From Halichondria panicea (lineage: Eukaryota > Porifera > Demospongiae > Suberitida > Halichondriidae): a stretch of DNA of 64,000 nucleotides. Below the pieces are notes generated by a model. That model was not told the origin of the DNA. It did no database searches and saw only the letters and a list, made by a program, of their open reading frames with translations. Below are positions 4,393 to 61,653 of this stretch, one piece after another (the first letter of the stretch is position 1; every line of letters starts with the position of its first letter). Location of the stretch: contig NC_087380.1 in NCBI RefSeq assembly GCF_963675165.1, forward strand, positions 5,278,071 to 5,342,070, written 5' to 3'. Position numbers and translations under genes: made by a program.

Positions 4393-7300
4393 TCACCGAA
4401 TAAAGGGATGCATACTTAGACGTGACTCTGGCTCCTTTCGAGACTTTGATTTGTAGAAAACATTCCAGAACCTCAGTGTTTCGTCACCAGCCCCTGTGAC
4501 CACTGTCTGACCATCAGGTGACATTGCCTAAGTGGAAATGGCACACACAAAATGATAAGGAGCACAGTTAAGAGATTTATTTGACATGCAACAATTGAAG
4601 CCAAACAACAGCAATAGTTTGGGAGAACATTGGGTAAGGATGGTATAGCCTACAAGTGCTATCCACATTCACACACTCACTAGATAAAGGACCCTTTGGG
4701 CATGCCCTGTTAGCTTGGCCACTTGAGACAGAGCCGGGTACCTCCATACAATAATTTGGTTTTGAGAGTAGCCATGTGTGCTCACTAACTCATTAGTGCT
4801 CTTGGACCATGCCAGGTTGCATACCTGTAGGGGACAGAAGCAGTTAGCACCAGTATACCTACACAATTACTATAGCACTAAAGTGCAAAACCCTTGGCTG
4901 GTGACGTGAAATGATTATAAAGAAACCAGAAGAGTTATGATTATAATGCAGTGCATGTAGTGATGAATATCATGTATGACTTATTAAACTGTCTAGTACA
5001 GCAACTCAGGAGATAAACCAGACTGGAGGCATGCTGAAACATTTGAGAACAAGGTTTTATATGCACAGTGGACTAGGATCACAGCAAAGAAGCCTGGAGT
5101 CTCATGCAGAGAAGTATAGCTCCTGGAGTAGGATCTCAGAGTCAGACAACTGATTCAGACACAATTCTAGCTTTCTATTGTATCGACTCTTTTCCACAGT
5201 AATTATTGGCTTATGTTTCGAATAATAGCCGCACCTAATTATTGGTTTATGTTTACGCAAAAAGCTTCGTAGGTTTAGCTCGCCTTTTTCTGCGAAACAA
5301 ATACTTCTTTGCAAAATCTGCCAAATTTTAAGCCTTAGTTTTAATGCTAAAAGTTTCCCTACGTACAAATTGTGATGGCTAAATCACCAGGGAAGCCAAA
5401 CTGAGCAACAGACACACACACGGACACACAGACAGACTACTATAACCGAGGCCCTACCCGCCTCGGGCAAACTAGAACACCAGTGTGTATCACACTAAAA
5501 CTGTCACTCAGCTAGTAGACATGGAGATCCATGCACACATTAGTTACAGGGCCATGTAAGAGATAAGTGCTGCACACCTTGATACTGATGAGCAATAATA
5601 TGTATACTGTACATGTTACTGACCTGCGAACCAGTGTCCACTGACTGAATCTGTGTCCCAGTGAGAGTGTTCCAAAAGCGAATTGTCCGGTCTGCTGTCC
5701 CCCCTCCTGACGCCAGTAGTCCGTGTTGGTGTGGAGACCAGGAGATGGCTTTTACAGCTGCGCAGTGTTCAGAGTATCGTTGGTAGGGTGTACACGATGA
5801 ACGGTTCCACACAAACAACTGTATGGGGAAAAAAGACATAAGAATTGCTCAACACGAATATTTGCATCATTAAAGTCACTTGATGACAGGGTTTCACAAA
5901 CATCATTATAGTTTTCACAGCTACATTGCGATCACATATTGCACGCTACTATACATGTACCCCCTCCAGACCACAGTAAACCACAAAGCAATGCTAACAA
6001 TGTGAGATAAGAGGGTGAGGAGTGAGGACTGATGAGGACGTAACCACAACCAATGCAAACACAAAGAGAAACCCAATAACTCAGCCAAGTGAGGTTAGTA
6101 CAATTGTTCCATGCACCAGAGCATGAATGACATTATTCATTGTACAGTCTCTGGGCTAGTTGTTCAAGCACAATGCCATTAGTACATGATACCACTCACA
6201 ACCCCTACCTACTGTACGTGTAGTAGTGAGGCCATTGTACAATGCAGGTATTGCCTGAGAAGAGAAACAACAAATCCCCCAGAGCAACCCATCAACCCAT
6301 GCAGGTTTCATATTTTGAAAACAGCATTGGTCTCACCTTGTTGTCATTGCCACCTGAGGCTAAGAGCTGACCGTCAGGTGACCATCTAAGTCCACACACC
6401 TCCTGCGTGTGACCTTGGTAGCGTTTGATTGGACGAGATGCCTCTCGATGGTCCCAGCCCAGAATCATGTGATCTCTGCTTCCAGAACACAGCATGTCCG
6501 TACTCCATGACAAAGAGCCTACAGAGATGAAATACATGTATGTAAAGAGGTGCAGCAAGACAAAATAGCAGCGTGAGCAAGTCTAGGAACACATGGAGTG
6601 ACTGGATAGTAAACTGTACCTAAAGTACCAGGCATACATGGCAGTGATACATCGTAGATTGGAGGCCATACAATTCAAGAGTGGACACAACAATATACAA
6701 TAAGCCTACACATTACATACTGTGCAAGCAGGACACTTACCCACTCGTGCTGAGTGTCCGTGTAAAGTGGCCACTTTCTTCTCAGCAGCTGCATCCCAGA
6801 TCTGCACCAGGCCATTCACAGTGCCCACTGCCAAATGTTGACTCTGGGGAAGGGTAATTATTCAAGCACTGAAGTCAAAATGAACGCTCATACAAAACAG
6901 CTAAATTTATGGTCCAATGTGCAGTACATTTATATACATTTACACAGGATTTAGGTTGAACAATCCCTAGTATAAGCATTAGTACTTATATTTATGTGTC
7001 AACCCAAGATGTCAATTAAGCTCACTCTGTCAGACCAGGAGACAGAGGTGACCACATCTCCATCATCCTGGAGGTCACACAGCTTTGAGACTTGACAGGT
7101 GCAAGCACTCCACAGGTAGACAGACGTGCCCAACCCCACACACATTGTATTCTGTGAGGACCAGTCCAACAGGTTTAGGTAAAAGTCGTCTTGGAGCTCT
7201 GGGGCATCGAGGACTTTGAATGGTGTCTTGGCTATTTTGCGAGTGACTCTTTGTGGAGATACTAATAACTTTGATCTGTGAAGGGAAAACCACACAGTTA

Positions 7301-18557: not shown

Positions 18558-21500
18558 CTATAACAAGGATTGTCTAGTGAGCTCCACAAAAACTGGGGCG
18601 TCAGTGTCAGCTGGTGATCGATGCAATGTGTCATGTGAATTGTCATGTTCTATAAGAGGTAATGTCATTGCTGTACTAGTCGAGGAGGAGGGTGCGTTGG
18701 AATTTCTCCGAGAGTGGTTGATTTTGATTGGCTCAGTTTCCTTGATACAACACGCTACCATGATGGCCAGGAACACAGGAAACACTCCAAACAAGAATGG
18801 GACACCCTTGAAGAGCTCATTCTGTTTGTGTGGGACATAGAGAACAGTCATAATACTTACAAGAGACACACAATCTCATTTGGGGTGGATGAAAGCCTAT
18901 ATCCCTCATAGCACCCATGCTGATGAGAATGACCTAATGAGACGTTACATGCCGATGTATAGTAGTAGTGACTTTGAACTCTATGAAAATTAGGGTTGAA
19001 AATTTATTGTATGTACCAACATTATACACAGTGTACATGTAGTGCTTCAACGATGACTACAGTAATTTAATTAATGTGTATAATACCTCTATTATAGGTG
19101 CCACAGAAATATTTGCAGTACTGCTGTGTCCAGGACTCAAACCCACAGCACTCTTACCGACACCAACAGCTTCCCCAAGATTAACGTGGAACACCCAGAA
19201 CAGGAACCCAAATATAGCTGGACCCAGCCCATTACACAACCCTCTCATTCCGGTGAGTATGCCGAGGGCCACCCCCTGTTGTTCTGACGAGGCATTCTTG
19301 CTGACCAAAGCGCTGATGGCAGGGTAAATGATGGAAGATATGGCTGCAAATATGCCAGCAAACCACATCAGCCTAGTGTGTGTGAGGGGGGTTAGGGGTA
19401 ATGATCATGTGTACAGTAATTTCAATGTAGCTTACACGTGGTTGAAGATGTACCGTATAGCGGGTAAATTTTGCAAGCCTACTATTTGGCGAACTATTAA
19501 TGGCGATTATTTATTTGACTATGCTATGGAAATTTTTTTAATTTGGCGACCACCTTGATTCACCAAATAGACAAGATTACCCGCTATACGGTAGTCAGGT
19601 ACAGCCTAGCCTACTAAAACATTGATATTAAATTAGCATAACTATTTTCATAGTGGGAAACCATGAGGAACATGCATCACTTAGTTCAACCTTGGGCTGC
19701 ACACAGGCAACAAACACCATACAGTACATGTACATGTAAGTACCATTTTGAGGTCCACACTCCATATATGAACAGCTGCACTGCCTGGAAAACCAGCCCT
19801 ATGATGATGGTATACTTATAGCCAAAGAAGGTCATGAGCCAAGTCAGGCCCAGAGTCTGAGCACCTACTGAGGTCACACAAAGAACGGCTATGAACAGCG
19901 CCACTTGGTTCAGTGAGAATCCAACCACCTGGAGAAAGGTTAGATTACAAAAGCTCTGCCTACATGTACAGTATGGTACGGAGCCGTACACTTCACCTAC
20001 TGTATAGGCTGTTCATATTGAACTGTAAATTCTGGAGAGCTGTTGCGATTCGAATACAAGTTTGAAATACACTTTTTATACATGTATATGTACAGTACGT
20101 ACAAACAGGAGTACACTCCTGGTACAAATTATGAATGCATGCATGTACATTGTAAGACTGGACTGTACACCAATGACGATACTAAATGTATGTGAATTTT
20201 TACTTCAAGGCTGGGGAAACAACCCCTATAATTGTGCCTGAACAGATTTTAAGGAACAATTCTACAATGCTTCACGGTATCTACTTCACTACAATAATCT
20301 ACTACAATTGCCTAGTGTATAGCTGACCTTTTGAAGGTAGAGGAAGAAACATGAGTATTGGCCAGCCTCAGGGAGGTAGGAAAGAAAGACCATGATGGAG
20401 AGCCGCAGGAGACGAATGTCTTTACCAGCCTTACGCAGGGACTGTGGAAACACAGTGGGTTATGAACACTTTGCATACATGTAGTGTACAGTAGGTACGC
20501 ACGCATACATGTACATTCTTTATACTACTATACTGTACAAATGTAGACGCTCTTCAAAACTCTCCCTAAGAAGCGAGTGTTAACACCTTGTAACTTAAAG
20601 GGGCCTACATGTACATGTACATGTATATAAGTTTTCTGTCACTAATTCACTTTCCTATATAAGCAAAGGAAACCTTTCAACAAAATAATGACAATTATTG
20701 CCCCGGGCCCCTCAGCCCCCTCTACATGTACTTGGAAGGTTCACTGTATACTCACAGCAAAGGGGTCCACTTGGTCCCAGTTGATCTCTCCCCAGTTGCT
20801 TTTTCTCTCTTTGAGGCTCTCGGGCACCATAAACCAAATGAACATGACGTTGAACAGTGCTACCATGGTAGCTAGTAGAATGACTTGTGTCTCCCCATGC
20901 AGTGGGCTGGCATTCAGGATGTACGTACCCAATGCCGGACTGATGACCAGACTAGCAGCAAAGGTGGCAGACACCTGTGCGTGACGGTGTGTGGATGGAT
21001 GGGGTAAGTTTTGAATTAGAATACGGTTTATTTCTTATGATAAAGGTCCACTCTACGATAGGTAAGCCTTCCATTTATAGTGTATATAGTTAGTGCTCAC
21101 CAGTCCATAGGAGTATGTCCTCTCATCCTCACTTGTGCAATCTGCCACGTAGGCAAACACAATGGAGAAAGTGACAGAAAACACTCCCGATATCGCCACA
21201 CTAATAAAGTAGGCCCTGTGGGGAGGGGGGTGTTACAAAGGACATTCTATTGATCTCCTAATTTACCGTACTTAATAACGTATTTTCATTCCCTAACTGA
21301 GCATACGTATTAAGTATGGTAGAATAATTAGTATACAGCAATCTTTCTCGTTAGAATACTCACATCTACTGCAATTATGACACACTTGGCAAGGTGGTCT
21401 TATTGCATTTGTAAATGAGCATATGCCCGTGCTCTGTACACGTACATACTCTCACTAGACTATCCAGTGACTCACGTGGCACTATAGAGCAGTATGGGGA

Positions 21501-22626: not shown

Positions 22627-22713
22627 GTTGTAATCAAGGGTCCATAAGTCAAAGTTCGAAGGTCACAGTTCAAAGTATCGTAGTTCTATATTAAAGTGAA
22701 CAAGACCACAAAA
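22627..22713. promoter_or_regulatory. Very short bidirectional promoter, MFSD14/LMBRD2
   Basis: Only 87 bp separate the two start codons. The gap contains an inverted-looking CAAAGTTCGAAGGTCACAG segment and no TATA box. Both 5' UTRs and the initiation region must fit here unless untranslated exons lie further away. Confidence 0.55.
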
Positions 22714-25700
22714 ATGAGTGAAGAAGACGTAACACGTTTCACTGCCCCAATTATCATCATTATCGAGTTTTTACTAGCTCTGGTACTAGCTGTCTACCTG
22801 TTGTACCAGTATGGAGACATCAAGAGGCAAAATCCGTTTGTTACAGTGTGTACTCTGATCATTTGGTTCATGAGCTTTGTCATCATCTTCCTTCTTCCTG
22901 TCGACGTATCATCAGTAAGTATCTGCTTGCCCTTCACATCTTTGTATAATTATGTTCCCAGAGCTGCCTTTGAGGTGATTTATGTACCTTGTTTACACGT
23001 ACACAGGGTTTCTATGAGTTGTGCCTAAGCCATCAACAAGCTAGCTCACCTGAACCACCTGCTCAAAACACTTGCATACAACTGACGGACAATGAAACTA
23101 AAGGCGTCTTAACATGTTCAAGCCTCGTATGCCCAGCTAGTACTGACCAAAACTTCACAATGTTTAGGCAACGCTGTGTTGACTGTTGTTTTCAGCCATA
23201 TTCATTTGTGTGCCCCTTACCCTTGGAGGTTATCTGGTACATCATCTATTGGCTTTTCTTCATACTTTCATGGTGAGACCTCCACCATGTGCATGTATAC
23301 ATTTCAGGGATATTAAGGTCCGTTTATAGTGATAGAGGATTCAACAGTGAGTTAATTGTCTGGTACAATGGTGTGAATATTATTCATAATTACAATATTC
23401 AACTATTTGCATGTTCATTGCGCACCTCCATCCACTTGCCATGTCAATAATACACATACCTACACCCAACAGGATAGTGCTGCCTCTGGAGCAGTCCTAC
23501 GTGCTGGCCAGCTACTTCAGCTTCTGGAAGAAGATAGTGAGAGCACTGATCGAGAATGCTATCTTTTACGCCACCTTTCTCGTCATATTTGTCATACTCT
23601 TCATCTACCTGGTTGTCGTCGAGAAGATTGTTGCTTTGTAAGCCAGTCTGTGTGCTACATGTACATACATACTGCTCATTGAGTGCTTGTGTAACGAATA
23701 AATGACCCGTACTGTACTGCCTACAATAGGTTCAAAGTATGACTATGGCGCTTCTATGTTTGCTATTTGCTGTACATCTCAGGGATCTGTTCTACTAATA
23801 GTGTGTTCGAAGTCTGTGTGCTGGTATTAAAAAAACCGCTGAGAATTCGTATACCGCACTGCTTTAATACAGTACATGCATGTACATGTAAGCACTACAT
23901 ACCCCCTTCAGAGAGAATCTCCCTTCCCTGCTGGCCACTGCGTCCAACACCTGGGGGCTGATCATCCTCACCGTATTGCTAGGATACGGACTAGTGGAGG
24001 TACCCAGGTCAGTGCCATTCTGATATTCCTGTCAGACATATTCCAGTCAGACATTTAAAAGTACAGCTTGTCATCAATACTCTGAGAGCAGACACTCTGA
24101 CACATACATGTACTAACACAGGTCCCTGTGGAATACGTCGAGGAGGACCTACTCCCTCAACCACTGCTACTTCAGTGCCTCCAAGCTTTACATCGACATG
24201 TCAGAGAGGGAGGAAAAATTCAAGGAAGTAATTGAGGTGTGTGCTGTGTGTGCTATGTGTGTGGGGGTGGGGCTGGGGCTGTGGCGAGCGGATATGTGAT
24301 GGTACTGTGTTGGAGAGCTCAGGCAGTAGAATGCAATAGAATGATAGTGGTCAGGAATAGATGCCTGTGTACATGTAGTGCATAAAATTTAATGTTTAAA
24401 GTGTGACGGATATTAAGGGTTGCAGTCAGCAACGGTGTAGGTAGCTTGATTCTACAGTATGTTACATGCAACATGTACTGTAAACACATAGTAGGATGCT
24501 ACAATTTGTGTACAATGAATGCACATGTATTATTAGTAAGATTATCTTCAATACGCTTTCTCTTCCTTCTCTGTAGCGTGTGACTCAGGTAGCCCGTAGT
24601 GTTCACTATAATGACCCGTTTCGTAAGTACATCAACGTCATCATCAAGAAGTTCCCTAAAGAGATGCAAGGAGAGTTTAGCAAGGGCCACGACGATTACG
24701 AGGACTTCAGGTACACACACACACAAGATTGTAAACGTACTGCATTACATGTATCTAGCATCTTGTACCTGTTATTATTACATAAAACCCATGCCTTGTG
24801 AAAGGCACTCCACTCTACCTGTTCTATAGATATGTGTTTGTTTCTACATGTATACATACACAAAGTCATCTACTAAGTGGTCACACGTAGGGCATTAATA
24901 AACGTGTACATTTAGTAAAATTTTTTAATGTGTCGTCAATGTTATTTCAGGAGTGGAGAGGACCCTCTCACTAAGCGCTCTCTGGAGTCTCTGCTCAAGC
25001 AAAGCATGAAGGCTGTCAGATACTTCAACAGCACCAAGATGTGAGCAGCACGTATTTTTAAGTATCAGTGCAATGTTTAATAGCAAACTACAATAGTTGG
25101 CAGTGATTGTGTGTTAAGGGTCATGCATAATTATGTATTGACCACTCAAGCGTGTATAGGGCCGCTAGCCTGATGTCTTTAATTATAGCCAGGGCCGTAG
25201 AGTGTACATTAATTGATCACATAGTTATGACATACATGTAGCCTAGAGCAAAACATTCAGAATTGTTTTCCGCGTTGCTTTATAGTGTTGTTACTGTTAA
25301 CTAGTATGTATTGTTTGTTCCCTGCAGTCACTGGCTGGCCTTGACTGACCAAACCTTGCAGTTGGAGGACGTGGAGCTCAACGCCACTAAGAAACCACGG
25401 TTAGTCTCAATTATACATGTATGTACTGGCTCTCGACAGGCATGATCTTTAGGCTTAAATTGTGTTGCACATTGTAAGTCTCTTGTTCAGCTGTTTTGGT
25501 TGTTTTGGGTGAACGCAACTGTTTCGTCTATTCTTTCTGTTTGTCCACACCCACTTGTTTATTATACAACAATGTGCTTTCAATACGAATCATGTATGCA
25601 TGTGTTTAAAACACCAGAGTAACTTAATTCAATTCGCCATCACCGAACGGTTCTCAACTACATGTATATGTACCCAGGGTGTTATACAGGATTTTGAAGT

Positions 25701-39100: not shown

Positions 39101-42100
39101 ATGTACCAGCTAGAATGTACACACACAATGTACATGTACTGTTGTCTCTCGATTCGTACATGAATAGTCGCATTTAATTGAGAGACACGTGTGTCATGTA
39201 TGACTGCGTATATGTAGAGACAACAGTAACCATGATTAACATCTTCTCCTTTCACCTTATCATATGCATAGCCGAGTATCTTCTGTCCGTCCACACTCAA
39301 AATCTGGTCCCCCGCCTGCAGTGAATTGCTGACCTCAGCAGGACCTCCCGGGGAAATGTTTGAGATAAGGACGGAGGGAGCACCCCCCACCAACTCCCCC
39401 TTCTCTATATTGAAACCCAGACTCTTCTTGTCGTCAGTGTATAGAGTGACGGCCTTCACTTGAGCAAGACCATCCAGACTAATGTCACTGTCTGCTTGGG
39501 TATGCTGGGAGGAAATCAAGAAGAGAGGAATATGATTATATTGATTAAACTTTACAAGTTATTCATTGGCTCATGCCTGTTCTCTGCTCTTACACTAGAC
39601 GCACACTGCACATAATTATTTGTACTAAATGTATGGGCATTCAAAGATTACCACAGCAAAACGATAATAGATATAGCATAGCCTTTGTTTACTGGATTTG
39701 AACCAGAAATGACCACATTGTACCATGTGATACGCACATGTGTACTGTACACTAAGGTAATAACAGTTATCAGATAAACTTACTTTTCCTTTTTGTTGCT
39801 CCTGTGTTTCTTCCACCTTATGTTGTCGTAGCAACACAAAACGGACAGTAGGTGGGGCCTTCGCAAGCAACTCTTGAACCTTCTGCTGACTCATTCCGAG
39901 GACACAGGTGTCATTGACTTTGAGAATCATGTCCCCCCACTTAAGACGCCCACATAGCTCTGCCACGCCCCCCGGTTGTATACCCATGATTACGATCCCA
40001 CGAAGAGACTGGGTGGTGCTGGCAACAATGCTCAGCCCTAAACCAGCCTTGCCCTTCTGTAGTAGCACTTCAAACAGGTGACCGTCTGCCTCAGGAAATT
40101 CAGCTCTGAGTGCCAAGATTATACTGTAAATACATCATACTTTCTTTTGATGCTTTAATTAAGTGCAGGGTCTTCTTTCTTGCCCCATAAATGTAGTACA
40201 TAAATGTAATACATGTACATGGCCTCCTACAGTACAACGTAATTTCCTCACCTAATTGCAGGGTCTTCCTCTTCTTCGATGGCCCATGAGTTGTGGTGTG
40301 AATGCTCGGGCGACTCCTGTAGTGTGTGAGTGCGTGGGTACTTGGCAGGACGACCCGTATCCTGGGTGTCTTTTTTTCCTTCTTTCTTGCCAGATGTATG
40401 AGTAGATAATGGACCCATCGGTTCTGTGTGAAGGGCATTATTATCAGAGCAGCAGCATTTAATATCACAATCACATGTACAATGTATCACAGGAGAAGAG
40501 GATACCACTTAGATAACTCCCCCTCATCTTCACTACAGCACATGTATCTGCTATAATGAAGACGTGACCTGGGAGTGCTTCCGGTAAGCACGAAATTTAT
40601 TCAACAAAATGCTTTTAGAGGCCATTCAACGACATTTAAGTACCTCGAAAATTTCGCGCTGTACATTGTATATTCTATTGATATGTCCTAATTACACTTT
40701 CAGGGATTCTTCAGTGAATACACACATACACCATCAACCAAACTTTTGAAGTGCATATTATTTTAGCATTTTTACGGATTGGCCTCAAAATAATACGCCT
40801 CGAAATTTGGAATCATTGCGGCTATCCTCAAAATGGCGAAATATGGTCCTCTAAAATTTGGCTACACGGTAGTAATGAAGAGAACATTATTACAGTACTT
40901 TCCTTAATCTCACCATCTTTGGATCTCCTTGCTGACTTCTTGTCTTCAAATACATCGTCTCCAATCTTTCGATGTTTCTTTCTAGAACCACTACCATTGA
41001 AGACTAGTCCCTTAGGGGCGTGGCTGACTGTGTTGTGTCTCCGTTCCACCTTAGGTCGTGGTGGCATTCCAGACCGGAACCTGGTCTCAGATTGGGACTT
41101 GTTCATTGGTCGCGGACTGACTTCTGGCCGTGATGGTTGGTTCAGGTGTGGGGGGTGTTCCTGCAGTTTAACAAACATACAATAGGCTAGCTTCCATGTA
41201 CAATGAAAGCACTGCGGGTGCTAATGCCTCGGTGGAGGTGTCAAAGCTACATAACATAAAGCTAGCTAATAGCAATAGCTTTTATACACACATTACACAT
41301 GTATAATTTATCATGATGAATATTTTTATAAATTTTGCTGCCTGCAGAACAGAGAAACTCAACAAGTGCGTAATGATCGACCATGATGTTAAAAACGATT
41401 GATGTAAAACGTTCAAGTCTTGGCTGCAGCAGCAGAGCCTTACAGCTCTCTTCTCACTCTTGCAGCTACCAATAGCTAGTGTTCTAGTGCAGAGTTAACT
41501 ACTAAGTAGAGTAGCAACACTCCATAGACAAGTTTTGCTACGCACTCTTCTGAAAAGGCTGCAATGGCATTCCAAGTAAGCAAAACTAGGCACAACTCGA
41601 GAACGAAGCATTATTTTGCAAAATCCACGAACAAGAAAACGTTACTAGAAGCCTATAGAAACTCTTACTTACAGTTCATTGATCCTTGAGCAGCTGTAGC
41701 AGCCTACACACACAGACACAGACACAGGTACAAACACACTACCGTATACCTCGCTTGCGCATGCGCACCGAGGCATAATAACATGCATGTACATGTAAGC
41801 AATATAAATGCACAGAATCATGAATCACGCTATTACAGTATTCTGTAATTGCCTATTGCTTGTAGTACACTGTAACATGTGCGCTCCTACATATACATTG
41901 TATATGTGTACAAGCAATAAAAAGCAGCGAATTTTAAGTGAATAGCTTACGAAGTGTTGTGCTGCTTGAGGAGGAGGAGGAGGAGGCTGTCTCACATAAG
42001 GCTGGGTAATAAGAGGGGGTGGTTGAGATTGAGACTGCTGCATGGCCATCATGTGAATGTCACTGTACTGTGGGGGGTCACGATTGACGGGCCCGGGGGT

Positions 42101-52232: not shown

Positions 52233-55200
52233 ATGAGAAAAGAAGTTATTTTACTCGTCAGTTGTTTACTGGGGATTATACATCCAGCTATTTCATGTGA
52301 GCACATGTACCTACCTAAGACTGTAGTAGATCTAGCAGCTAGATACAGTAGATCTATTAAAACACGTTGTGTACCAAAATAGCTTTAATTAACTATTTTT
52401 CGTGTCGTTTTACAGGGGGTAGCTCGAACCAGGACAGTGTCCTTCTAAAAGACGTCAAATCAATCACTCTAGAAGCTGGTAAAATGACCAATGGCAGACG
52501 ATCCTCTCCAGTGCCCCAGCTGAAGTGTGTGGGAGGTTCAGCTGGCTACAGTGCCCCACAGCCGAGAGTCGTCCAATGTATCAACATGGGGTCTGATGGT
52601 TACGACGCCCAATGGGAATGCAAGGCTGATATGGAACATGACTATCGCTTTGGGAAGCTACAAGTGTCTTGTGAGGGCTATAAAAATCCTGATGATCCCT
52701 ATGTCCTCAGGGGATCGTGTGGGGTGAGTGGGTGTGTATACTTACAGGTGCCATAGACTAGAAACTTACTGTACGTATGATTGTGTAGTTTACTTCAACA
52801 AGATTGGGGACAGTTGTACATGTTGTATTTATGCTACCATATAGCGGGTTATTCAAACGAGGATTTTATTTTCGAGGATAGTGGTTCAAATGACCACACC
52901 CCTACAGTAGAGAGGTTTCAATACCGGATGTAAACCAATTTTCGAGGCACTAAATTTTCGTTTTTCTGGGTCAAACCTCGAAAATAACCAGCTATACGGT
53001 ATTGGCTTGTGGTGCTAGATACTAGGTCTAATATACAGCTCAGCTATATACACTGTATAGTTGTGTATAGTAGAATGACTTGGGCTAAGGTATTACATGT
53101 AGGTATAGTCTTGAATTGTACTTGCTTCAACCCTTCTCCTCCACATGTGTTTGCAGCTAGAGTACGAGCTGGATTACACTGAGCAGGGAAAAAACAGACA
53201 ACAAAGTGGTGGTGGTGGTGGTTACTATGATAACTACCAAGGCAGTCACAGAGGTTCTAATCACTACAACGATGGGTATGTCCAGTATTCCTACAATACA
53301 CTTGTTTAAATGTTTAAGCTTTCTGAAATTCATCATCATTTATTTTACATCGTAGAAAGTATGTACTACACTTTACAGTATGTTATTTGGTAGTGATTTT
53401 CAGGCATTCATTGTGTGACATTGATGGTTACTGTCAATCCTTCCCTGCAGCGGTTTCCGATGGGGCAAGATCGTGAGTCTGGTTATCATGGGAGCTGTAA
53501 TATACTGGCTGTATAAGCGTTGCTCGGGAGGGGGTCGAAGTCACACACCCACCAGCACTGCAGGCTATTCTAGTGAGTGCAATAGTAGTAGATACAGTGT
53601 ATGTTGACTTTTCTGATGTTAATGCTAGTGCCGTTGTTTTAGTGGAGTTTACAGGTATAGCGTATGCTGTGAAGTGATGATAATTGGTGATGTGTAACAC
53701 CCTAATAGTGACCCTTTGGTGTACTTATACGGGTAAAAAATAGACCCTCGTATTAGAATTGTTACAACTGAGCCTCAATAAATTTCATGAGGTAAATTTT
53801 ACTGTTCCTCGATCACAAGCTGTTACAAATGTTTTTTGTGTGTGTAGGTGCTGGTACTGGCAGCACTATGGGTGGCAGTGGTGCAGCTCCTGGTGCTGGT
53901 GCTGGTGGTGGTGGTGGTTTCTGGACGGGGGCTGCCACGGGGGGACTCCTAGGATACCTGTTTGGGGGCAGAGGGTAAGAATATTGATAACACATTATAG
54001 ATCAGTGTAGTATTCATATAATTATGGTTGATCAGGAATCAGGAATCATGTGTACTGTGTATACTTGCTATACATGTAGTCTTCTTTTATTACTCGAGGC
54101 ACGCGTGGGCGGCCACGGGTATAGTAGTCCGTTGGTTTGTTTGTTTGTGACAGGTGAATCTACTCACCTGGGTGTCATAGCACTGCGTTTACAGCATAGA
54201 TAGTCTTCACACAACAAGTTATTAGTTTTAATAGTGGCAGATTTTGATGTTAAATCTTCGTTGTCAAATAAAAACGAGCAAAAGCTAAGAAGCTTGTGTC
54301 TGTGTCTGCTTACCTGGATGCTATAGCACTGCGTTTACGGCATGGGTAGTCTCCACACAACAAGTCAGTACTTTTAATAGTGTCAGCTTTCGATGTTAAA
54401 GCCTTGTTGTCGAATAAAAGCAAGCAAAAACTAAGAATGGCACTCCTTCATTCATTCTACTCTCCACTTGAACTTGCATGTTGGCCTCTCTAACTACTAC
54501 ATGCGTCCTTTATTCGAGGTACGTGTTTACAGCTGAAGTGATCCTGTACCAGTTCCAATGGAAGAGGGTCACTAAAGTAGAAAGCTAAAATTATGATTGC
54601 TGCTTCTTTGCTTCTTTGCCCCAAGCCCCAGAACATTATGATCATATACCAGGAGCCATATTTCTAAGACTCTAGGCTTCTTTTTGCTGTAATCATAGTC
54701 CACAGTGCATGTCTCATCCATACCGAATCTCCATTCTTAAAAGTTTCAGCATGCTAGTGCTCGTGTTACTTAATTGCAGCTTCCATGCTGCATTATATAT
54801 TGCGTTCATGTAAACAGCCGAGGGTTAGCACTTCAGTGCTCTAGTTTACTATAATCAGCAGGTTGACTGCAATACAGTGTACATGTGTATCTTGTTATAA
54901 TTGTGTGTATTAATTGTACAATTATACTCAACCTTTCCTCATACAGGACTGGGTACGGGGGCGGAGGTGGATGGGGGCGTAGTTACGGCCCATCATGGGG
55001 CAGTGGGTACACCACAAGGTCCCACCGCTCCAGTGGGTGGGGCTCTGGTGGCGGTTGGGGCTCTGGTGGTGGATGGGGCTCTGGCAGCTCCAGATCTGGG
55101 TCCTCCAGGAGCTCCAGTGGATCAAGATCTACGTCAGGTAGGATGATATATCATACTGTGAGGCAGGTTGTACTGATATATAGGATTGGTGAGTGTTTGT

Positions 55201-56030: not shown

Positions 56031-58892
56031 TTACAAAAATTGACAGCACAACTGTTTGCTTGATTGGGTATCTTGATTACACTTGTGGCATACACAGTTA
56101 ACGTGAGCACAAGCTCCACACACACTGCATTTGATGACTTCAGTTCCAAATTTATCTGTTACATTGTTGCAAATTATACATGTTCGGCACTTGATGCAAA
56201 TATAGTTTTTAGACTCTTGGGTCGCCTTGTTATAGCGGGTGCAGTTTGTCTCTGCATTAGCATGAGCTCGAGATCCGCATAGTTTACATACAGCTGTGAA
56301 CGTTCCAGATTCATTGGTTAACTCATTACAAACAGTACATGTTCGGCACTTTGCACAGAGGTAGTTCTTAGATGCCCTAGCGTAACGGGTACACACTTTA
56401 TTGGCATGGGCACGGGAATTGCATTGCTTGCACATGATTACGCAAGTGGGTTCAGTTTGTTCTCCACACACTGTACAGTCAAGTTCATGTGACTCAATGC
56501 CAACCTCTCCGGCTGGAGTCGCAGGATTTGTACGACCTCGGTCTTCACAAGTTGAAGCAACTCTATCCTTACTTCCCTGTTGTACAATAGTTTGAAGTGA
56601 TTCTGAAAGGGTGAACCTCTCATCTGGTACTGGGTTCCAGCTGTGCAAAAATGCTACCATAATTACAGAAAGATCAAAATTGTATATTAGCACGAAGTGT
56701 ACTTAACAACTATTGGCTTACCGTAAGGTTTTCGGATACATACGTTTGCTTCTTGACGTACTGTCTTCTTTGATTGGTGTTTCCTCAGCTTTGTTTGGTA
56801 CTGGTGAGTTAACAGACATAGAGTGTTCACGCTTGTCACGTTCCTGAGGAAAACAACGTAATTATAGACACTTTAGACACTAGTTGAAGATCTACATGGA
56901 AAGTACATGGGAAAAGTGCCTCAGAGGAGGTATACTATGGGACTTAGTATATATACCTGCAACTTACTTAGTACCCCGTTGTCAAGAAAAGTACAAACTT
57001 GTTGTATTGCAGTCAAGCCTCGACGGCAAGGTTTGCGCATGCGCACTAGTAACGATTTAGACACTGTTTTCTCGGTGTTCATGTGATTTAGAAGTCCTCA
57101 GCCACCTTGCTGCCTTTGGGCTTCTAAATCCCATATACACCTCCAAAACAGTGTCTAACTATTATTTATTTCACCTGTAGAAAATTATTGGTCTAAACTT
57201 GTTATAATGCCATGATATAAAAAATTCCCCCAAAAGCTCGTAACGACACAGGTATTCTTTTCAACTAAAACAACTCCTTCAGCATTAATACTTAACCAAA
57301 ATTATTATAGATTTTCCTCCCCTCATGATTGTAATTATGACAATACTGCATATCTGCTAATGCTTGGTAGTTCGGAAATTTGTAGACTCACCTCTTCTCT
57401 AGTGTACAGCTGTAAGCCCTCAGGCAGTTTCTCATCATTAGGATCCAGGGTGACGTAGGGAGTGCCTTGCTTGAAGTAGAAAATATCAACATAGTCCCTC
57501 CAGTTGCTAATGTTCATGTCATCAATTTTAGATTCTTCAAACTGTGTTGCAGTGACTACTATCTTACAACGTTTTTTCTTCTGGACAGCAGCAGAGAGAA
57601 TGCCTGTGATAACTTCACTATGCGGATGTTTGTAGCGTAGGTGGATGCCATGACTGATTAAGTAAACGTCAGCATCAAATTGCATATAGAATTCCATACA
57701 GCATATCATGTTAGAGCCTCGTCCTTTTGTTGATGCCATGGTACTATTCTCCCTGCTTCCATGGTGAGGCACTTGGAAAATACCAACAGTCTTACGCTTG
57801 GTTTCTTCACTCGAATCTGGCTTCAGTACCCGGTTTGGGTTTTGTTTTCGACTTGGATTCGGCTCCTCATCAGAAAAATCTATTTGGCTTAAATCTGGCT
57901 TTGGTCTGATAGTTTTTGTTACTGGATTTTCTTTTGGTTCGAATATTTGTTGGCTTGAAGTTTGCCTACGTGGAAGACTTTGATTAGGTTTTAGTCCGAG
58001 TGTATCAAGGATGATCCCACCGTATGAGTCGCCAGTCAACACCACATCGTAATCATATTTGCTCTCTAGTAGTTTCACAGTTGTCACAATACTTGTTGCA
58101 TTATTATCCCCTTGAAAACTGGGATTTTTATGAATTTCTACAGTTGATTTTTGAGGCAGATTTTCTAAGCGAGTGTGTATTTGTCCAGGTGCATTCTGCT
58201 GAAACCAGAATTGAAGGCAATCGCTTTCTGCACTGCTGTATTTTGCTCCATTTTTGTGTTCGTTTTTTTCGTCTGGAACTTCCACATACAAACTTGTGGC
58301 TGAAGTGGTTATGATGGGACAGCAGACAGTGAACTTTTCACCCGACTTAATTTCTTTGCTTCCAGTACCTAAAAGTGCATTAATTCCTCCATGATGGTCG
58401 GCATCGGGATGAGTATTGACAATCGAATCAAGTGTTATCTGTCGATAGGTACGATCTCTCCATGCTTTTTCTCCAGAAGATATTGACGGTGGCTTTTCTA
58501 TGCAGTTATTATTTGCTAGAGCTGTTGTCAAGTTGGAAAGTGGTGTCTCTTTATTCTTTGTTAATTTTTGTCCTCGGCCACCATCGATAAGGCATTTTTT
58601 GGATGATCCTGCATGGAAAACGAGAAATTGGATACCGACAATCCAAATAAAGTAAAATCTAAGACAACGTACGCTCATGGACACTTCCATAATTCTACAC
58701 TTCTTTTACGATAGCTTATTATAATCTCGATAAAGTGTATAGTTGAATCATAAGAATCATGTAAGACATGCAATCATGCAATCACGTACCATTATCATAT
58801 TTAACCTCCAGTAATATTGCATCTCCTTGTCCTACATTGATAGGATGGACTCTAACTGCTATTGGCTTTTTGGGTTTTGCTCTAGTAGCCAT
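56031..58892 (-). CDS. ComEC-like metallo-beta-lactamase-fold protein with C-terminal PHD-like zinc fingers
   Basis: Four minus-strand exons: 58892-58790, 58608-57392, 56843-56722, 56640-56031; 2,052 bases, 683 residues. The N-terminal part has the features of the ComEC/Rec2-type MBL branch: GQGDAILLEV, CLIDGG, the metal motif NTHPDADHHGG near residue 100, VVLTGDSYGG near 228, IFQVPHHGS near 313, and SHGIHLRYKHPHSEV. The metal-binding His/Asp residues are kept, so hydrolase activity is plausible; the substrate is unknown. Residues 490-525 are a linker. From about 532 come three Cys-rich repeats, each CxxC...CxxC...H...C...CxxC (CTVCGEQ/CKQCNSRAHAN, CTVCNEL/CKLCGSRAHAN, CIICNNV/CSVCGACAHVN), a C4HC3 pattern of PHD/RING type; the last is shorter. 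No membrane helices are seen, unlike bacterial ComEC. It is divergent from the SH2 gene about 500 bp away. Each domain is clear; the fusion's function is unknown. Confidence 0.85.
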
Positions 58893-59391: not shown

Positions 59392-61653
59392 ATGGCAACA
59401 GAAGGTAATAATTATTGATGTAAGAAGATGCATGCATGCAGCTATTATAATAGTGGAATTAAGAATATTGCATCTAATTATACAGAAAGCCTATATATAG
59501 GGCTATTATTTATACTGTTGTGCATGTACGAGATGATGCACATGTTACTATAGACATGCCACGCAGATCAATGCAACCAGATTCCTGATGAACAAGCCCC
59601 TCACTATATCAACGGACATCCAAGCACTAGCTCACAATATGAAAATCAGCCACAGTATGAAAGCCCTTCACTAATTAGCCAAGGTTAGACTACAAGCCGG
59701 CAAACACATCACACCTAAATTTAATATGCACAAGTCATGTTTTTACCCAGAATTTTATTTTATCATTACGTAGGTCAGCACAACAGCCAAGATTTTGAGA
59801 GACCAGCAACAACGGGATCTACCACGGCAGAACCTAAATATGAAAACTTTAAGTTTCCACTTCCTATAATTCCAGATCAAGGCCAATGGACAATTGAAGG
59901 TATATAGCACAATTTATAATAGTTACACTATTATACTTAGTTATGTCATATCCCCATACAGTATAGTGGGAAATTTTTGTGGGAGCAAATTTTCGCTAAA
60001 TTGCTCCAGAGCCCTTAGAAGAAGTGTTCGCGGTGTAATACACATTTCAATGCCAGGACCCCACGCCCACCGACAGGTTTTACATATTCAACGTATAAAT
60101 ACTGGTGCATAGGAGTTTCTCTCAGTTTTTAATTTTGCGTTAACTGCTCTGCCTTCAAAAAACGTGAAAATTTGCACCTGGTTAAAATGTCTCGCTATAC
60201 GGTACACATAATACAATCATGTGTATCCATACTGATAGCATGCAATATCTATAGGACCACCCAACCAGCCTATTACTAGAGCTGTCAGTGAACTTTTCAA
60301 TGGGCAAGGTACAGAGGTGGCGACTAACCATACAGGAGGTGTGACAAAACACATGACGTATATATACTTATCCACGATTGTACTTTTACACACAATAGAA
60401 TTCAAATCAGAACAACATGAAATCAGCAAAAAAACCGACCCAGAGATTGAAAATCCCAAACCAGGTACTTTCTCTTATCATGAGATCAATACAAAACATT
60501 GTTGCATTTTGAGTGGGCAGATCAAAGGAAACACTGTGCCAATATCTGCCATATGGCACAGGTCAAGCCTTGAACTATGCCACTATCTAGATACTGGCAT
60601 AGTATGGCTGAAGTTACCTAAAGCCTACCCTCCTCCCAGTAACTTGAAACGGTAACTTGAAACGGTCCCTTTTATAGTATAACACTGTTAAACAGATTCA
60701 GTGGTAGGCAGAAAACGTTTTTCATGCATCTGGTGCATTCCACAGCCACCACAAGTAGTTGAAACTAGTTGTCCTATAAAAGGAGTGATGCAGTTGTTAC
60801 ACAGCTCACTCGTGCACACATCGGATATATTGGCTCAGTAGTGCCTTTGCCCTCGAGGCCTGCGGCCCTCGGGCCTAAGTCACTACTGAGCCAATATATC
60901 CCATGTGGCACTCATGCATGTGTCACAACTATAACTTATTAACACAATAGATAAATTGTCATGCAGCAAATGACAAAAAAGGAACTGACCAAACTGTTCA
61001 ACTTCTACAAGGCCAACGACCAAGTGTTGTACGTTTAACCAGCTAGATGCTACTTGTGTATGCTAAAGTGTATACAATAATTTTATGCTCCACAGTGCAT
61101 GGAGTCAAAAATCTATAATAGCGACAAGATTCCCTGACACAATTGTTGAAACCATGCATGCACATGCACATTCTCTATAATCATGTAGCACACAGAGATA
61201 CTGACTCTAGCTGAGGAACCGGAAGAGATGATAACGCAACACAGAAGTTACCACAATGAAATCAGTGGGGAAGAGGCCAAGAAAAGGCTCAGAGTTTTCG
61301 GCGATCACCACTACCTCACTCGCTACAGTGAAAATTGGAAGTTTTACGTACTTTCTGTGTATATGAGCGATGAAGATTTAGAAACCGAGAAGTTTAAGCA
61401 TTATAAGCTGAAGGTTTCTGGTGAGGGAATAAGAATTCTAGACCACAAACTGTTTGAAAGCTTGGAGATAATGCTCAAGTACTACGAACACAACAGGCTC
61501 GATCCAGCCTTCCCAAGAATTGGAGTTTGCCTCACTGAGAACGACTACAAAATAAGAGTCAGAGAGATACGTGGGCAACAACCGAATCCTGACCCAGCTC
61601 CACACATCGAGGAACCGCAAGCCCAACAGCTCATTAAATGTACAATAATATAG
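59392..61653 (+). CDS. Small SH2-domain adaptor with N-terminal tyrosine motifs
   Basis: Six exons: 59392-59404, 59567-59683, 59774-59899, 60255-60308, 60967-61023, 61196-61653; 825 bases, 274 residues, phases consistent. The N-terminal half is polar and probably disordered, with several tyrosines in possible phosphosite contexts: HYINGHP, QYENQ, QYESP and KYENF. Y-x-N is the known GRB2 SH2 preference. The C-terminal half is an SH2 domain: YHNEISGEEAKKRL, then YLTRYSENWKFYVLSV with the Arg at the FLVR position, HYKLKV, and LFESLEIMLKYYEHN. There is no kinase, SH3 or membrane segment, so an adaptor is the simplest reading. Exons 4 and 5 are the least certain; if exon 4 is not spliced at 60308 the frame runs on to a stop at 60655, giving a form without SH2. 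I do not recognise a named orthologue. Confidence 0.8.
59959..60202 (+). repeat. TA-flanked MITE, family C, in SH2-gene intron
   Basis: CAGTATAGTGGGAAATTTTTG at the left and TCTCGCTATACGG at the right, TA on both flanks. The left terminus is diverged, and GAGCAAATTTTCGC is shared with the 55292 copy. Confidence 0.75.
60824..60900. repeat. Perfect 20-bp inverted repeat with GC-rich loop
   Basis: GATATATTGGCTCAGTAGTG (60824-60843) is exactly complementary in reverse to 60881-60900. The 37-bp loop is GC-rich, with CCTCGAGGCCTGCGGCCCTC. It is inside an SH2-gene intron, or in the 3' region of the short form. Confidence 0.9.

Follow-up and report, generated by a model that had tools for sequence, protein, structure and literature searches.

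A four-exon gene near the far end of a 64,000-nucleotide stretch of the genome of the sponge Halichondria panicea (contig NC_087380.1, positions 5,278,071 to 5,342,070 of the forward strand; the whole stretch is referred to below as the window) encodes a protein of 683 amino acids in which a metallo-beta-lactamase (MBL) domain of the ComEC type is joined to PHD-type zinc fingers. The gene stands at the start of a cluster of related copies, keeps its metal-site residues and has an MBL exon that evolves under purifying selection. As the best explanation, held tentatively and at somewhat less than even confidence, we propose a soluble ComEC-type MBL phosphodiesterase that would be steered by its PHD fingers within a module-changing tandem family, perhaps with a role in defence or genome conflict.

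Gene structure and domains of the window protein

The gene runs on the minus strand from an ATG at 58892 to 56031 and comprises the following exons.

58790..58892, minus strand: exon 1, 103 nt, residues 1-34 plus one nucleotide, with VGQGDA (GQGD at 58832-58821)
57392..58608, minus strand: exon 2, 1217 nt, bulk of the ComEC-type MBL domain
56722..56843, minus strand: exon 3, 122 nt, charged linker (ERDKREHS...)
56031..56640, minus strand: exon 4, 610 nt, linker and PHD-type zinc-finger region, stop codon at 56033-56031

All three introns (181, 548 and 81 bases) are bounded by GT..AG. The same split between exons 1 and 2 is found in the paralogs, whose exon joins were read from genomic sequence and not from transcripts, and the acceptor CAG|GAA of exon 3 has its counterpart in the copies 5389 and 5508. 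Since exon order and splice sites recur in related copies, the fusion is not a gene-model error, and an artefact or a wrong joining of genes is ruled out.

All five signature blocks of the ComEC branch (GQGDAI, HPDADHHGG, LTGD, VPHHGS and KHPHSEV) are present in the window protein, which bears out an earlier note on the window that had placed them in an intron-containing animal gene. The metal-site motifs, together with an insert between the last two of them, are located as follows.

58411-58394, minus strand: motif II HPDADH, with H101, D103, D105 and H106 by alignment
58102-58100, minus strand: motif III, Asn204, placed by alignment
58030-58028, minus strand: motif IV, Asp228 (the bridging Asp), placed by alignment
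57766-57761, minus strand: motif V HH (H316/H317), placed by alignment
57800..57988, minus strand: insert of about 60 amino acids (residues 242-304) between motifs IV and V, rich in Pro, Ser, Lys and Glu

The MBL domain of ComEC is described as a Mn2+-dependent nuclease with three His, four Asp and one Asn as ligands; its motif II Asp and motif III Asn set it apart from its closest solved homologue (Silale and co-workers, PMC8579336). Both of these ComEC-type features, the motif II Asp in place of His and the motif III Asn, are kept in the window protein, and candidates for the fourth Asp ligand are D43, kept in 37 of 37 aligned rows, or D24 of GQGD. The metal-site columns are invariant in a 33-row alignment with viral-contig relatives, and the position of the motif II Asp is taken by His in 3 of 29 bacterial and phage rows.

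With respect to library models, the profile of seven host copies (an alignment without c5443) has as its best PDB profile match the solved ComEC MBL domain 9ic4 (E 2.5e-12). All seven aligned copies match LmuA (best 1.3e-21), PDC-M48B, Avs1a and RTasMBL in PADLOC and ComEC_Rec2, Avs1a and 6A-MBL in NCBIfam, where the best Avs1a score is 1.8e-17 vs 1.5e-9 for ComEC_Rec2. The window protein alone matches LmuA (4e-14) and Avs1a (6e-5) in PADLOC, whose matches carry no cut-off, as well as ComEC_Rec2 (1.7e-7), Avs1a (1.7e-5; 23.8 vs 420 bits) and 6A-MBL (4.7e-4; 19.4 vs 220 bits) in NCBIfam, all far below the curated cut-offs; Lactamase_B in a full-length Pfam scan (0.0061) is likewise below cut-off. 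In the reverse search with a profile of eight host copies, ComEC, soluble ComEC-like proteins and one phage MBL row made up the top 8 of the 29 non-host rows listed (36.9-48.7 bits), with anti-phage rows at 36.6 bits and below. The nearer bacterial group therefore appears to differ with the direction of the search, the library models pointing to the anti-phage type and the host profile, in disagreement with them, to ComEC-like proteins.

The window protein shares with the C-terminal MBL domain of ComEC, and with soluble ComEC/Rec2-like MBL proteins with DUF3006 in Bacillota, the VGQGDA start, HxDxDH, the motif III Asn and the LTGD, PHHGS and HP blocks. Unlike ComEC, it has no membrane or competence part (29.8 vs 190.05 bits for TIGR00361, with no competence domain listed by Pfam in the 683 residues), carries PHD fingers at its C terminus and belongs to a separate clade. 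Its motifs II and III lie 98 residues apart (79-109 in the host copies) vs 71-80 in ten ComEC-like rows, and the part following the HP motif measures 75-87 residues in the host vs 40-51 in eight of the ten ComEC-like rows, the other two having added tails.

In bacteria, MBL nucleases of the ComEC branch have been shown to be DNA-degrading effectors of immunity, and the same MBL type to serve as protease-activated, DNA-specific anti-phage pro-nucleases that are opened by the cutting of two disordered inserts (PMC12799240). With these gated enzymes (Avs1a, HamM, Lamassu/DRT-associated MBL and CanC, as described there) the host protein has in common that it is soluble and that it possesses the same metal-site residues, whereas the host copies form a clade of their own. 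The spacing between motifs II and III (98 residues vs 128-200 in fifteen anti-phage-type rows) argues against the published double gate in the window protein. Also, no protease gene was seen next to the MBL gene, which in a Pfam scan confined to ten frames of the window is flanked by SARAF and SH2 domains. The statement of the earlier note that such domains are known mainly from DNA uptake is outdated in view of these nucleases and of the hexaxilins reported from animals (PMC10772126).

Among the eight copies compared, the insert between motifs IV and V occurs only in the window copy (spacing 88 vs 24-32 in the seven others). In the predicted model its pLDDT (predicted local distance difference test) is mostly under 50, and a tandem repeat is ruled out, no array having been found. 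The predicted structure of the window protein is of low confidence, and Foldseek gave no useful match.

The C-terminal region contains three finger-like units.

56346..56477, minus strand: finger 1, PHD-type (C536 C539 C551 C554 H559 C564 C576 C579)
56187..56339, minus strand: finger 2, PHD-type (C582 C585 C599 C602 H607 C614 C629 C632)
56034..56180, minus strand: third finger, atypical (C635 C638 C652 C655 H660 C663)

Of the three C4HC3 repeats announced by the earlier note, two (C536-C579 and C582-C632) have complete ligand sets, while the third, which begins at C635, departs from the pattern in its final part: its last CxxC is either compressed directly next to the preceding ligand (C665/C668) or incomplete at C679/C680. 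Unlike the window gene, copy c5573 has a full third finger. Pfam PHD reaches 32.8 bits (cut-off 24) in a scan restricted to the C-terminal 155 residues, and 16.2 bits (0.011), below cut-off, in the full-length scan. A profile of ten fingers matches the PHD fingers of KAT6A and PHF13 at 8e-4 to 0.005, and matches to chromatin readers including DPF3 extend from 8e-4 to 0.01. Two of the window fingers share the C4HC3 pattern of these readers but differ from them in a longer spacing after the His (H-x4-C, H-x6-C); the atypical third finger is a further difference. A structure model of the zinc-finger region, built from one sequence, was unusable (pLDDT 34.9). The central claim of the earlier note, a soluble ComEC-type MBL domain joined to PHD-like fingers, thus holds, given the missing competence membrane part and the recurrence of the fusion exons in paralogs.

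The gene family and its neighbourhood

A six-frame search of the host genome (131 Mb, 39 contigs) yielded at least 33 MBL matches, which were grouped into at least 15 places. Thirteen of these lie at C4:5.334-5.590 Mb, in a 256-kb cluster starting at the window gene; one place at C13:284 kb and a divergent one at C4:3902 kb lie outside it. The copies at 5389, 5455, 5508, 5567 and 5590 are broken or partial. Near-duplicate copies with MBL, OTU and finger parts are located about 117 kb apart at C4:5364500-5366570 and C4:5481000-5483060, and as their OTU and finger parts are 98-99% identical at the protein level, they stem from a very recent duplication. Every tabulated metal-site residue is kept in the window copy, c5417, c5573 and cC13; motif II has changed from HPDADH to HPNLDH in c5364, 5481 and 5455, and HPH has become HPD in c5520.

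The GT donor of exon 2 stands at the same position in seven of the eight ends examined, the window gene included; in c5573 it is shifted downstream by one codon (three bases), which leaves the phase unchanged. Behind this donor, in phase 0, comes one of two continuations: a charged linker exon with PHD-type fingers, or an OTU-like exon. The former arrangement is that of the window gene; related exons are present at 5387-5388 and 5507 kb and also at 5449 kb, where there is no clear MBL partner. The OTU-like exon ('VPAxSLE...') follows the MBL exon in the copies 5364, 5417, 5443 and 5520, and in c5573 the fingers are followed by another OTU-like domain.

The assignment of these exons in sister copies to the OTU fold is weak but consistent. 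The PDB profile matches at E <= 0.04 number 14: six carry the name OTU or ubiquitin thioesterase, the other eight that of RNA polymerase (L), which we take to be viral OTU domains. Pfam OTU is listed for three of five sequences (best 7.3e-4), and the DGNC and HYD regions align between the host domains and solved OTUs (E 0.003-0.04). At the positions presumed to be catalytic, by alignment to solved OTUs, the Cys of DGNC is replaced by Ser with HYD kept in four of the five aligned copies (C4:5365600, 5421200, 5444500 and 5524200), and the fifth (C4:5570582-5571064, minus strand) keeps DGNC but has RYD for HYD. As none of the five has both catalytic residues, the domain is considered to be a degenerate, catalytically impaired OTU. 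A likeness to OTU deubiquitinases (OTUD1, OTUB1, OTUD5 and viral OTUs) is thus confined to the sister copies: two OTU queries found no match in the window by tblastn at an E limit of 0.05, so that the window gene has no OTU domain and a gene cut off before an OTU exon is ruled out. Regarding the ubiquitin link suggested by the earlier note, the OTU-like domains of the sister copies, though catalytically impaired, lend it a little ground.

The selection acting on the MBL exon of the window gene is purifying. Nei-Gojobori ratios of nonsynonymous to synonymous substitution rates (dN/dS) for exon 2 between the window copy and six others range from 0.32 to 0.63, and from 0.25 to 0.61 in the motif core, which is more constrained than the whole exon in all six pairs, in two of them only slightly. 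Some closer pairs come near 1 outside the core (c5520/c5417 0.93, c5417/c5573 0.90, c5520/c5573 1.23). These values speak for a functioning protein that evolves more loosely outside the core, and not for strong positive selection.

As to the surroundings of the gene, a Pfam scan of ten window frames identified the following domains.

52361-52753, plus strand: SARAF domain (2.2e-53), the gene probably continuing to about 55612
61189-61650, plus strand: SH2 domain (2.6e-7), on the other flank of the MBL gene and on the opposite strand
39628-40134, minus strand: PDZ domain (1.5e-11)
6295-6582, minus strand: CDC20/Fizzy-type WD40 (3.3e-21)
19060-19404, minus strand: MFS transporter piece (2.8e-5, under cut-off)
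22684-23025, plus strand: LMBR1-like piece (5.1e-13)

By eye, glycine-rich frames after the SARAF domain seem to be the remainder of the same gene, which lies on the strand opposite to the MBL gene and would end near its 3' end; further PDZ-like frames were seen by eye at 30-49 kb. The SARAF, SH2, PDZ and CDC20-type domains would fit ordinary animal gene content. Bacterial contamination is ruled out by the introns, by the animal-type flanking domains (SARAF, SH2) and by the contig size of 7.8 Mb. Intron 2 contains, at 57055-57160, what appear by eye to be terminal inverted repeats (AGACACTGTTTT ... AAAACAGTGTCT), resembling a miniature inverted-repeat transposable element.

Proposed activity and competing readings

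The product of the window gene would be a soluble, probably intracellular enzyme whose MBL domain would bind metal ions, probably Mn2+, and hydrolyse phosphodiester bonds, most likely those of DNA, while the PHD-type fingers might direct it to chromatin or a partner protein. In the tandem family, the single phase-0 donor after the MBL exon would lead either to PHD-finger exons or to a degenerate OTU exon; the same catalytic core may thereby be combined with different targeting or ubiquitin-type modules. A role in defence or genome conflict is suggested by the clustering, the turnover of copies, the loss of catalytic residues in some of them and the kinship with anti-phage enzymes, none of which proves it. 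A bolder version, which we consider doubtful, is that the clustered, fast-turnover MBL nucleases form an intracellular, DNA-destroying arm of defence, the animal counterpart of the anti-phage MBL enzymes, in which PHD fingers or a dead, ubiquitin-binding OTU domain would sense or mark foreign or mobile DNA.

The strongest rival, although we judge it unlikely, is a binding-only role, in which the MBL fold of a pseudo-enzyme has been kept as a platform that reads DNA, RNA or nucleotides and the zinc fingers do the work. The altered motifs of c5364, 5481, 5455 and c5520 would suit such a protein, as would the absence of a catalytic residue from each of the five aligned OTU-like domains (four have Ser in place of Cys, the other has Arg in place of His). 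However, the retention of all tabulated metal-site residues in four copies, including that of the window, argues against it, as does the stronger constraint on the motif core in the six window pairs, slight as it is in two.

Somewhat less probable still is an ordinary housekeeping hydrolase, for instance an RNA-processing nuclease or an enzyme resembling the phosphorylcholine esterase CbpE, the next relative with a solved structure. Housekeeping genes do not typically form tandem families in which some copies are broken and modules are exchanged, and a function in defence or genome conflict fits better because intact, altered and broken copies sit side by side, indicating turnover. In addition, the motif II Asp and the motif III Asn of the window protein are the very features in which ComEC is described to differ from CbpE (PMC8579336).

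Origin of the MBL domain and its wider meaning

The phylogeny was based on 37 rows, comprising eight host copies, 15 anti-phage-type, ten ComEC-like and four 6A-MBL proteins, with RunA and RunB left out on account of their long branches. Its eukaryote rows were copies of this genome, of which the tree took in 8 of the 15 MBL places (leaving out the near copy at 5481 kb and 5389, 5455, 5508, 5567, 5590 and 5579). The anti-phage-type rows were labelled by gene neighbours or family models, Agro and MoxR_Rhi being without such proof of their own. The host copies form one clade (100/99) on a stem of 1.36 changes per column, next to clades of anti-phage-type (15 rows, 100/99), ComEC-like (ten rows, 96/88) and 6A-MBL proteins (four rows, 100/100), and are nested in none of these sampled bacterial clades. 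A sister relation to the anti-phage-type group is poorly supported (61/26), with p values of 0.41 and 0.40 in the approximately unbiased (AU) test for the ComEC-like and the 6A alternative, respectively.

When 84,980 prokaryote species genomes were scanned for the pattern, two loci were confirmed, both of them full-length ComEC; a pattern search of viral_contigs with the host alignment gave 53 stretches, none of them confirmed. In 297 genomes of one bacterial phylum, the profile of the seven-row host alignment found one genome at E 1e-10, with a ComEC, and the LmuA and 6A-MBL models found three and four, respectively, at E 1e-25. On plasmids, the window MBL had no tblastn match at E 0.01; the paralog c5573 gave 41 records and cC13 gave 61, mostly annotated as ComEC/Rec2 family, along with 12 phage records at E 0.1.

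Eight of the c5573 plasmid relatives were inspected. In four (from Sinorhizobium, Paroceanicella, Methylorubrum and Miltoncostaea), an S8 peptidase gene immediately precedes the MBL gene; in one, the MBL gene is directly upstream of a serine protease gene, and in three neither was seen. A patatin gene occurs on two of the S8-MBL plasmids, and cyclase, E2 and TIR genes are nearby on one. Such S8 (subtilase)-MBL pairs look as if they were a subtilase-based relative of the anti-phage pairs in which a trypsin or a caspase accompanies the nuclease. A plasmid of Bradyrhizobium septentrionale carries caspase-family, hypothetical and MBL genes in a row, in a canu-like order, followed on the other strand by S8 peptidase and AAA ATPase genes.

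That a bacterial ComEC or anti-phage MBL gene was recently transferred into the animal and then fused, in line with the transferred domain envisaged by the earlier note, is improbable. Bacterial relatives do exist, for c5573 also as plasmid MBL genes beside those for S8 or serine peptidases, and soluble ComEC-like proteins receive the highest scores with the host profile. Against a recent transfer stand the position of the host clade outside the ComEC-like, anti-phage and 6A clades, its long stem and its poorly supported sister, together with the lack of plasmid matches at E 0.01 for the window MBL, the outcome of the prokaryote scan and the introns of the host copies. Moreover, related genes of animals have been reported, in three sponge classes as well as in some bilaterians (PMC10772126). 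A bacterial ancestor of the MBL domain in general is plausible, without a particular transfer being identified.

In animals, the MBL part by itself is probably no novelty, because hexaxilin and hexaxilin-like proteins, which are reported to be ComEC-related MBL proteins, are described from three sponge classes, some bilaterians and a few protists, with the hexaxilin-like relatives occurring in demosponges and calcareans (PMC10772126). This report favours an older presence of ComEC-related MBL domains in animals. The earlier note had named membership in an ordinary, widespread metazoan family whose relatives show no fusion as speaking against its reading; the present data resemble that situation at most by half, the MBL type being reported in animals but fusions being found in relatives inside the genome.

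By far the least probable reading is a silica-linked protein of the hexaxilin type, as in the axial filament of sponge spicules, since no signal-like N terminus was seen in the window protein and PHD and OTU modules are usually intracellular. The likeness to hexaxilin, by description only, lies in the ComEC-related MBL fold, the multiple copies and the occurrence in sponges, including demosponges and calcareans, whereas hexaxilin is described as a 38-kDa silica protein, and 'zinc finger', 'PHD' and 'OTU' have no occurrence in the main text of the report (PMC10772126).

In a literature judged mostly by titles and abstract openings, with subscription papers largely outside it, no account of an animal protein that fuses an MBL domain to PHD or OTU modules was found, and the words 'lactamase' and 'comec' do not occur in the main text of a review from 2024 on immune modules that are shared across life. 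The literature found would thus seem to offer no precedent for the PHD fusion, for the alternative OTU exon or for the cluster, while the MBL type itself is known from bacteria and, by report, from animals. ComEC-related animal genes, so far read via silica formation, may include nucleases. As a multi-copy animal family that keeps its catalytic site in several copies and joins it to PHD- and OTU-like parts, the genes described here represent a candidate for a shared immune effector, and an unusual, defence-like role of this ComEC-type animal family is worth testing.

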